The position numbers were made by a program, and so were the translations under genes. The notes beneath the pieces were generated by a model. It saw only the letters and a program-made list of their open reading frames with translations, ran no database searches and was not told where the DNA came from. Shown in pieces: positions 3,846 through 46,208 of a stretch of 51,805 bases of DNA. Numbering within the stretch: the first letter of the stretch is position 1; each line of letters starts with the position of its first letter. Source of the stretch: Loigolactobacillus iwatensis (lineage in GTDB: Bacteria; Bacillota; Bacilli; Lactobacillales; Lactobacillaceae); assembly GCF_003950295.1 (NCBI RefSeq), contig NZ_RHNP01000018.1:1-51805 (forward strand), written 5' to 3'.

Positions 3846-4578
3846 TCAAACGTATGCCACATACAGCACAACCACAATCAGCGCCGGCAACATATTGGCC
3901 ACCCGAATTTTCATATCAAAAAGCAGGTTCACCCCAATACAAAAAATCATCATTGAACCAACTAACGAAATCCCGTTAGTCATGGCAGTTGATAGAAATT
4001 GATTGATTAATACTGCTAATAATGTGATTACCATCTGAAAAATAAAAACAGGTAACGCACTGAAAATAGCGCCAAGGCCAAAAGCTGACGCATAGATGGC
4101 CACAATCACGGCATCTAAAATTGCCTTTGTAAAAAGCATGGTTGGATCATGCTGCAGTGCATCTTGCAATGGGCCGATGACGGCCATTGCCCCCACGCAA
4201 ACGGTTAATGAGGCACTGACAAAGCCGTCCACAAATTTAGAATCATTAGCAGAACCAACGTGCCGCCGTAACCATTTACCAAATTTGACGAATTGACTGT
4301 CAATGTCGATTAACTCGCCAATTAAAGTCCCTAGTACTAGTGAGATGGTGGCCATAATTGTTCCGGTTGTACTAATTTTAGTTCCGTGAATCACCAAAAT
4401 TTGGGCCAGCGCACCTGCAAAACCAATAAAAATTACGGCAACGGCCAATAGCCTGCATAATTGCCGTTTTCAGCTTTTCATTGAGTAACCGTTGAAAGAT
4501 GTACCCAATAATACCGCCACCGACAATTGCGCCTGTGTTGACGAAGGTTCCAGTTCCCACTATGTAAATAACGCTCAC
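3846..4578 (-). pseudogene. DUF554 membrane protein, frameshifted
   Basis: Two overlapping minus-strand frames together make one DUF554 (YqgA/YdfK-like) membrane protein of about 243 residues. The N-terminal part (GTFVNTGAIVGGGIIGYIF through TAIMQAIG) is out of frame with the rest, which begins LAVAVIFIGFAGALAQILVI and carries the typical GTLIGELIDID segment and several more membrane helices. The junction lies near 4440-4455, around ATGCAGGCTATTGGCC. The function of the family is unknown. The start is probably the GTG at 4578, or another GTG slightly downstream. The break is either a real inactivation or a base-calling error. Confidence 0.75.
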
Positions 4579-35245: not shown

Positions 35246-35815
35246 TTAATTTTGATAATGACGAACCTTAGGCGGAATATAAGCGGTCATGAAGGCTAAA
35301 ATCTCAGTTAATGAGTCAGAGAATAACAGCTTTTCCCGGTCAATTTGGGTAAGAAAATCATCCTGCACCATTTCATCGAACATAGCTTTCAATGGGTTAT
35401 AGTAGCCATTAATATTGTAAAAAACGCAGGGATTATCGTTATCACCAATTCGCGCCCAAGAGAATGCTTCCACAATTTCCTCCAAAGTTCCGGGGCCACC
35501 GGGTAAAGCAATACAGCCATCCGCTATCGTTAACATTTCCTGTTTGCGAATGGACATATTGGCTACCACTTCTAGGTCAGAGAGTTCGCTGAAAGCAGCG
35601 CCGTGATCGACCAGTTCTTGCGGCATAACGCCGTGTACCTTACCACCATTATGAAGCACTTCACTTGCTAGTATGCCCATTAAACCGACGCCGCCACCGC
35701 CATAAACTAGTTCGAGATTTTCACGCACTAACCAGCGGCCTAATTTGCGAGCGGCAGCCTGATAGATTTTATTATTACCGGAGGAGGCACCACAGTAAAC
35801 GGCAATTTTTTTCAT
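35246..35815 (-). CDS. LOG family protein (TIGR00730; nucleoside-monophosphate phosphoribohydrolase-like)
   Basis: This 189-residue protein has the LOG-family motif PGGPGTLEE (about residues 103-111), a preceding GGGGVGLMG and the N-terminus KKIAVYCGASSG. Enzymes of this family cleave the N-glycosidic bond of adenosine or cytokinin riboside monophosphates and are often misnamed lysine decarboxylases. ATG 35815 is chosen because relatives start here; the ribosome binding site is poor for both this and the ATG at 35833. Monocistronic, role in lactobacilli unknown. Confidence 0.88.
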   Translation of the reverse strand: MKKIAVYCGASSGNNKIYQAAARKLGRWLVRENLELVYGGGGVGLMGILASEVLHNGGKVHGVMPQELVDHGAAFSELSDLEVVANMSIRKQEMLTIADGCIALPGGPGTLEEIVEAFSWARIGDNDNPCVFYNINGYYNPLKAMFDEMVQDDFLTQIDREKLLFSDSLTEILAFMTAYIPPKVRHYQN

Positions 35816-35850
35816 TTTAAAACCAACTTTCATTTTTAAATTTAATCAAG

Positions 35851-35933
35851 GCGTGTTGAAAAAGGATTAAGTTTCTACGCCGTAATTGGTGGTCAAGTAA
35901 GGGAAGTTGAGTAGTTTTTTAAACACTCTCCTA
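35851..35933. repeat. Dispersed repeat family A, full copy
   Basis: GGCGTGTTGAAAAAGGATTA at the left and AGTTTTTTAAACACTCTCC at the right form inverted ends about 80 bp apart. Confidence 0.6.
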
Positions 35934-36039
35934 GTGGCGTGTAGCGCTCATATTTAAAACTATTAGCTAGTTTTTAGAACGCCAAAACCTAACTGGAACG
36001 AGCCAGAACAGATTAGATTCCATTCCGGGGCGCGAGGAC

Positions 36040-36100
36040 GGAACACGTGCGACTTGGACTTGCCGGGCTTCAGCTTAAGTCCAATCGACAACGGGAAACA
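36040..36100. repeat. Dispersed repeat family B, copy 4
   Basis: CTTGGACTTGCCGGGCTTCA followed by GCTTAAGTCCAATCGACAAC. The GGACTT/AAGTCC stem and the ATCGAC tail match the copy at 23530. AGAACA words at 36006 and TTCTGT at 36104 could form an outer stem. Confidence 0.55.
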
Positions 36101-36160
36101 AGTTCTGTTTAGTGAATATGTTCTAGTAATTAATATTTGCTAAAATTGGGTGTTAAGAAT

Positions 36161-36885
36161 GAGCGACAGTGGCGGGTTGGCGAGCTAACTTTTACCAGAT
36201 AAAAGCAAAGCTGGAGTAAAAATGGATCTCGCCAAGCCCGCATGGCTCTACTCCACAATAGTGGATGATTTTCGAAACGAGAATCTTAGATGTTACGGAC
36301 GATGACCATTTAACTAAGGCATAAGGCGCCAAGTTGAAACATGGCTCTAAATGGCCCAAACCGCCATTAATAATCATCGACACAGCTGACCCTCGCGCCC
36401 CTTCACTCCATCAGGCCGCGTGGAACATTCAAGCGTTGTTTGTGTATTCGGCAGCTACTGTAAAACAGCTTGTTGCAAGTAGGTGAAAATTACTTTCATC
36501 AGTGTTGATAGCTAATTAAGATCACTTATAAAGTGTAAAGTCTTAAGGCCATGGTTCCGACTCAATTGTACTAACTAAACGATTAAATTAATTAATAATC
36601 AGAGCTCAACCACTGCCAAGGTGAAATGGAGGCGCTGGCGTATCAGCCGTGTCGAAGGTACTTGATGACCGAATTGTGGTCATTTAGTACCTTGCGTGAT
36701 TGACAAGATCCATTTTCTTTTCCGGTGGGTTTAATCGGAAAGAAAATTAGCTTGTCAACGCGCCACGCGTTCCATACGCCAGCGCCGGAATGGAACCTAA
36801 CCAAATCTGACCAGTGCAATTCAGTGGCCAAGCGGCATAAGCATTATTTTTAGTAGCGATATAATTTAATTTAAATATGGGCGCT
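36161..36885 (+). ncRNA. Candidate large structured non-coding RNA
   Basis: About 700 bases without a credible gene but with many stems. 36172-36184 pairs with 36228-36241 (GCGGGTTGGCGAG with CTCGCCAAGCCCGC, one bulge), enclosing TTTTACCAG/CTGGAGTAAAA. 36631-36643 pairs perfectly with 36774-36786 (GGCGCTGGCGTAT with ATACGCCAGCGCC), enclosing two long hairpins (36655-36693 and 36701-36758). An outer helix joins 36560-36571 to 36814-36825, and GGTTCC (36553-36558) with GGAACC (36792-36797) would make a pseudoknot. GTAGCG..CGCTAC (36853-36886) closes the 3' side. Strand is not proven. It resembles large ornate RNAs such as ROOL, GOLLD or OLE in scale; identity not established. Confidence 0.6.
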
Positions 36886-37078
36886 ACGATGCACTAGGAT
36901 TGTCTATCTACAGTGAAATAATAGGTTATAACCAAACTAACGCTTTAATTTTACAGCAATAAATTTCAGAAAGAAGAATAGAATTTAAATTAAGAACTAT
37001 TTTTTTAATATCGTCCGAATTATTTTAGCGATAGTTTATACTTGTCCTACAAAACTAATAGAAACTAAGGGGCTTAAT

Positions 37079-37399
37079 ATGACTTTACAAGAACACCAAC
37101 AATGGTTAGTCGCTTTTTATAAACAGCGTAATTGGTACCAGTATTCGCCGTTTATTCGGTTAAATTTTCTAATTGAAGAAGTAGGAGAACTTTCCTGGGC
37201 GATTCGGGCGTTAGAAATTGGGCGCGATCATCCCGGGGAGAAACCAGGAACAGATGCCAGTAAACGCGCAAATCTACAAGAAGAATTAGCGGATATTTTA
37301 GATCAAGTGTTGATTATTAGTGCAAAATACAATATTGCTCCAGAAAATCTGTTAACTGCTAGTGAAACCAAATTAAGCCAACGATTTAAAAATAGTTAA
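37079..37399 (+). CDS. MazG-like nucleotide pyrophosphohydrolase
   Basis: This 106-residue all-helical protein has the metal-binding pattern of the MazG/dUTPase-like NTP pyrophosphatase fold: LIEEVGELSWAIRA (EExxE, about residues 31-44) and NLQEELADILDQVLII (ExxD, about 69-84). Such single-domain enzymes hydrolyse non-canonical nucleoside triphosphates. The start follows AAGGGGC. Monocistronic, directly 3' of the structured region. Confidence 0.85.
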   Translation: MTLQEHQQWLVAFYKQRNWYQYSPFIRLNFLIEEVGELSWAIRALEIGRDHPGEKPGTDASKRANLQEELADILDQVLIISAKYNIAPENLLTASETKLSQRFKNS

Positions 37400-45963: not shown

Positions 45964-45973
45964 AAAACAATAT

Positions 45974-46208
45974 AAGATTGAGGTTGCGGAGATCAAGAGT
46001 CACAAACTGGAAGCGAAAAGCGCTGGTGAAGGTTTGTAAAAGGGTGATCCGCCGAAGTCATAACTTGCTTTTTCAAGTTGTGGTTGGGACTTGGTTTAAA
46101 AGGCCAAGAACTGTCGTAACAATAGTTACGGAGCGCTATCGACTGACTGTGAAGACTAATCGTCTTTTTTGCCGTTGTAGTAGCTTGGGCAAAAAGGGCG
46201 TTTTTTAT
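45974..46208 (+). promoter_or_regulatory. Lysine riboswitch (L box) with expression platform
   Basis: The aptamer 45974-46145 contains the conserved core words of the L box: GAGGTTGCGGAGATCAAGAG, GTGATCCGCCGAAGTC, TTGGGACTTGGTTTAAAAGG, AACTGTCG and GGAGCGCTATC. These match the order in the B. subtilis lysC L box. The platform has AAGAC/GTCTT then TTTTTT and a second stem TTTTTGCC/GGCAAAAA before TTTTTTATTT. Binding of lysine should favour termination and so shut off the lysine permease gene. Confidence 0.92.

Follow-up and report, generated by a model that had tools for sequence, protein, structure and literature searches.

Within the window, by which we mean the whole 51,805-nucleotide stretch of Loigolactobacillus iwatensis DNA analysed here, positions 36161–36885 pose a simple question: does this self-complementary block specify one large structured RNA of about 700 nt, as an earlier note had proposed, or is it part of something else? 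The block is gene-free, as had been claimed, in that no reading frame longer than 63 aa lies wholly within it (frames of at least 60 aa were listed). Its self-complementarity is also genuine, the 725 nt outperforming 20 of 20 shuffles with z-scores of −5.8 on the plus strand and −6.1 on the minus strand; however, because the two strands score alike, the shuffle test alone is uninformative on RNA. The block forms most of a composite interspersed repeat, but the latter extends farther, to about 35929–36899 (~971 bp). This repeat is defined by its inverted ends, by piecewise matches to other copies in the genome, and by an orthologous locus in genome G007, where the composite is retained with a different spacer and with one inserted module (D) missing.

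The element is bounded by two 30-nt terminal inverted repeats, at 35929–35958 on the plus strand and at 36870–36899 on the minus strand, which are 83% complementary; the end pattern has 12 + 3 occurrences in its own genome, against 0 for a control. Between these ends lie two outward-facing copies of a domain of ~180 nt, hereafter F, separated by a variable spacer (36413–36516). The core of the plus-strand copy, +F, spans 36620–36797, contains 58 bps and a single branch point (defined with the covariance models R1 and R2 and from pair counts), and scores 209.1 bits. The second, inverted copy, −F (36017–36412 on the minus strand, with outer limits set by eye), gives a covariance-model match at 36169–36384 (52.5 bits, E = 9.4 × 10−10) and is interrupted by modules B and D, since copies of F that lack inserts exist elsewhere among the copies compared. 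Module B (~119 bp; 36050–36168) is delimited by copies L035, L039 and L045, in which 36049 is joined directly to 36169. Module D (36251–36351, plus strand) is a degenerate member of a high-copy repeat family, for which 29 related places were aligned: in other copies 36250 is joined to 36340, although the exact limits are ambiguous owing to the 10-base repeat CATGGCTCTA. The 5' pairing described previously, between 36172 and 36228, is present, but it is part of −F; likewise, the alternative partner of the same strand at 36357 belongs to −F and not to a separate 5' RNA domain. Elsewhere, at L069:2429–2809, module B is present three times in a near-tandem array, repeating about every 122 bp. We also observed window-type elements at L036, L051 and L060 that occupy the same spot inside another repeated sequence (AGTAATG... 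/ ...AACGTG); with several elements at one spot in another repeat, the nesting of repeats is more than twofold.

Module D is a member of a separate structured repeat family, a high-copy hairpin of ~115 nt with strong covariation. The base hairpin matched 24 places when part of G000 and one contig of G007 were searched, and in an alignment of 17 complete copies (for example, L054:84–202 and L103:771–889) two-sided change is seen in 26 of 47 pairs; besides module D itself, the window holds a further place at ~23511 on the minus strand. Copies of D often contain additional hairpin modules, inserted after TA. In contig C35 of G007, a 3.6-kb stretch that is missing from the window near 4425 carries a D-type hairpin which, by eye, appears to break the frame of an XRE-like regulator.

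Further evidence concerns the fold of F. A 13-bp helix (36631–36643 with 36774–36786) enclosing two hairpins had been proposed from the sequence, and it is present at these positions both in the letters and in the predicted fold. When homologues were compared for covariation, as the earlier note had advised, the stem changes of the core helices proved to be compensated: among 26 distinct copies, drawn from the Loigolactobacillus genomes G000, G002, G003, G004 and G007 (with one row being a named L. backii record), 28 of the 58 pairs of +F show two-sided change while 99.1% of the cells remain paired, and none of 500 shuffles was as high for either measure. In a broader alignment, A3, compensatory two-sided change extends to 57 of 58 pairs, with 93.2% of cells paired and a covariation score of 0.676, compared with 0.191 for shuffled and at most 0.078 for slid alignments; these values derive from 100 matches at 63 chosen loci (99 distinct rows), which were fitted to the model, a procedure that favours structure. 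Not all of the proposed pairings fared so well. The outer helix (36560 with 36814) and the pseudoknot that was suggested to cross it (36553 with 36792) show two-sided change in none of 18 pairs across 9 copies, no better than shuffled; instead of forming the pseudoknot, the ACC of GGAACC pairs with GGT at 36620–36622 in a short covarying helix at the base of the domain. The F domain thus displays the compensatory base-pair changes expected of a structured RNA, and we regard it as a conserved structured element that most likely acts as a single strand.

The repeat is widely dispersed. Counting itself, a stretch encompassing it (35834–37078; 1245 bases) has 76 matching places in its own genome, as pieces in both orientations; in about 25 of these the match is to the module D part only. 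When the same stretch was searched against 60 genomes, matches were found in 8, namely its own, six others of the genus and one of another genus. The covariance model of +F, R1, finds the domain in seven of eight genus genomes (G000, 14 matches; G007, 26; G004, 45; G002, 19; G003, 12; G005, 2; G006, 3; G001, 0), and in at least 35 of 301 sampled Lactobacillaceae genomes, at least 28 of which belong to other genera (best E-value among these, 5.8 × 10−19). With the broader model R2 (62 rows), at least 20 of 395 genomes of the order were matched, all of them Lactobacillaceae, and of 398 genomes of the class only its own. Taken together, the family and order scans with R1 and R2 place the domain in nine genus codes (g1, g4, g5, g12, g15, g16, g21, g25 and g55); since 7 to 9 candidates were scored per genome under strict filters, carrier counts and copy numbers outside the genus are lower bounds. 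In these samples, therefore, the mobile structured repeat family is found in Lactobacillaceae alone. Using blastn, neither the window element nor one G317 element matched plasmids in PLSDB, and the window element matched no phage in INPHARED. Five stretches of Loigolactobacillus backii JCM 18665 contain a 23-base segment that matches the repeat exactly. One of them, L082, shares 200 identical bases with L059, a G007 copy; judging from this identity, G007 is probably L. backii and the window probably derives from a close relative.

The form of the repeated unit varies between carriers. In G151 it is a solo unit of about 135–170 bp with one domain, for which no terminal inverted repeats were seen; in G078, copy L257 is a 332-bp unit with short inverted ends; the G103 unit is about 530–720 bp, also with inverted ends; and inverted pairs of about 630 bp and 700–880 bp occur in G137 and G317, respectively. 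Terminal inverted repeats were found in the window element and in G317 and, by eye, in G078 and G103. The G317 end repeat has 135 + 133 occurrences (with up to 3 mismatches) against 1 + 0 for a control, many of them near contig ends, corresponding to ~130 copies by this count. The 15 complete G317 elements that were read are 699–883 bp long, with a longest frame of 124 aa. In the same genome, to which this test was confined, a terminator-like hairpin and T tract point at one end of the element from within 60 bp in 9 of 15 cases, compared with 1 of 294 control stretches. The family is thus dispersed, multi-copy and non-coding, in the manner of BOX- or MITE-type repeats. An exact 9-bp direct repeat flanks L257 at both ends; no consistent target duplication was detected in the 15 elements of G317, nor among eight from the genus of the window element (each of the latter being listed in both directions). 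No empty site for the window locus was obtained among the 8 genus genomes: a MazG-like gene is found in its own genome and in G007, G006 and G003 alone, and the stretches of G006 and G003 that were examined showed neither of the neighbouring genes (LOG-like and RecQ-like). A reverse transcriptase (PF00078) was considered as a general mover and rejected, being present in only 7 of 14 carriers.

Comparison with known RNA classes returned no match to the domain. The covariance models of ROOL, GOLLD, OLE and raiA, which the earlier note had suggested running, gave no hit at E ≤ 10 in 35800–37100, and Rfam 15 (including HEARO) gave nothing above threshold on the domain, either for the window block or for F regions of other genera. 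At E ≤ 10, the window block has just two sub-threshold matches, to a microRNA and a snoRNA family, and the sub-threshold matches of the other F regions are to eukaryotic or viral families only. No description of the F repeat family was found in an open literature library, judging by titles and the starts of abstracts. Adjoining one F copy, Rfam reports a RatA antitoxin (L170:3027–3117, minus strand; 50.6 bits against a threshold of 49), which may be a chance match. Elsewhere in the window, at 45970–46146, there is a lysine riboswitch (114.6 bits).

How, then, should the block be interpreted? The original reading is supported in part: there is a conserved structured element, it matches nothing in Rfam 15, and the low folding energy of the block would agree with one RNA of ~700 nt; against this, the block consists of two ~180-nt domains on opposite strands together with inserts that are missing from other copies, the two pairings needed to join these domains (outer helix and pseudoknot) are without support, and the sequence is interspersed through its own genome. 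We therefore rejected a single ~700-nt RNA, which now seems extremely improbable. A quite different proposal dispenses with selection on a single strand: F would be a set of nested palindromes, the arms of which are equalized by template switching (quasi-palindrome correction), such that the changes look compensatory. The whole block is indeed rich in palindromes on both strands and its modules are nested; moreover, conservation of the unpaired columns does not clearly exceed that of the paired ones (p = 0.17 outside the genus), and this lack of a significant excess argues against any strong claim on the loops. However, a strand-blind process should not yield 243 G.U cells against 44 A.C cells, as seen in the 100-row alignment (128 against 20 outside the genus). 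As the model was built on the very strand on which G.U cells were counted, which biases their excess, we also compared plain folding energies: these are lower on the F strand than on its complement in 80 of 85 copies (25 of 26 in the genus and 55 of 59 outside it, one of 60 rows having been dropped for unread bases), which is again unexpected for such a process. Furthermore, several unpaired positions are at least 90% fixed over all 100 rows despite the changes in the stems, the positions fixed to this degree including GUG, the AUCC / UAG internal loop and CCAC. Template switching is consequently an improbable source of the observed pattern.

A preference for one strand would equally be expected if F acted as single-stranded DNA, that is, as the folded end by which a single-strand transposition system similar to REP/BIME with RAYT or to derivatives of IS200/IS605 recognizes its element; in an inverted pair, one F lies towards the 3' end of each DNA strand. 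The solo units of G151 and the inverted pairs of G137 and G317 do resemble REP and BIME layouts, respectively; nevertheless, the Y1 transposase (PF01797) that such a system would use is encoded by only two of eight genus genomes and four of 12 chosen carriers (it is absent from G000, G004, G007, G078, G151, G103, G304 and G138), and it was rejected as the general mover. We consider this explanation unlikely, albeit the strongest competitor. A further possibility is that F is a cis-regulatory, riboswitch-like leader for the downstream gene, which at the window locus would be the mazG-like gene on the plus strand and the LOG-like gene on the minus strand. The orientation of the next gene was tallied for 103 of 104 typed copies by means of a crude frame caller, the remaining copy having no frame on one side. 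Of 72 copies outside the genus, 52 are followed by a gene on their own strand, and in g21 an orthologous locus retains the F pair between divergent genes; in the genus, by contrast, 25 of 31 copies are followed by a gene on the opposite strand and 6 by one on the same strand. Gene orientation around the copies is therefore inconsistent between genera, and the same-strand downstream gene that a leader would call for is not a regular feature. In addition, no neighbour gene recurs except at orthologous loci and for common families, such as those that we take, from their sequences, to be ABC and MFS transporters, and the G317 copies adjoin terminators. A leader function is thus very unlikely.

Given its dispersal, inverted-pair layout, nested modules, conservation of structure across genera, strand preference and, in one genome, high copy number, the F repeat is probably a BOX/MITE-like, non-autonomous mobile element of Lactobacillaceae, the cargo of which would be a three-way junction of ~180 nt under selection for its single-stranded fold. 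On balance we favour RNA as the acting strand: in any transcript leaving the element, the domain would lie close to the outgoing 3' end, where its fold may shield or cap transcript ends, or bind a host factor, and we propose that the element would therefore be tolerated beside genes. How the repeat moves is more finely poised: a DDE-type transposase might act in trans on the inverted ends, with a roughly even chance that this is so, a clear 9-bp target duplication being seen in one copy only. More tentatively still, the family could represent a new class of selfish structured RNA, in which an ornate ~180-nt RNA fold is the selected unit, transposed through many genera of one family, reaching up to ~130 copies per genome, lying beside terminators and acting on outgoing transcripts.

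The wider interest of the family lies in a 58-pair fold with no Rfam entry, which nine genus codes have in common even though almost all of its stem pairs have changed. If F does act as RNA, structured selfish RNAs would have in it a testable counterpart among bacteria; failing that, the covariance models still make it possible to annotate a repeat family that has been overlooked in lactobacilli of food and beverages. Small mobile repeats of bacteria are usually judged by their ends. With MITEs, the F repeat shares its non-coding nature, inverted ends and many copies, but it differs from them in that no consistent target duplication was found, a single 9-bp case aside, and in that its inside, and not the ends alone, is structurally conserved. 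It also shares with REP/BIME and RAYT systems a structured unit arranged solo or as an inverted pair, but the F domain is much larger and the Y1 transposase is missing from most of the carriers tested. Like GOLLD, ROOL and OLE, the first of which is named for Lactobacillales among others (PMC12286853), F is structured and non-coding; unlike them, it is a ~180-nt domain in many dispersed copies and not one large RNA. Judged by description, it appears closest in style to the BOX elements of Streptococcus (PMC3049150). These are intergenic repeats of modular build with variable internal modules; their families insert into one another, and on transcription they are predicted to fold. The F repeat is likewise modular and intergenic, with variable internal modules and nested families. 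No connection with any known insertion sequence was found for it, and it differs from BOX, as so described, in its ~180-nt branched domain, its strong covariation across genera and its occurrence singly or as outward-facing pairs.
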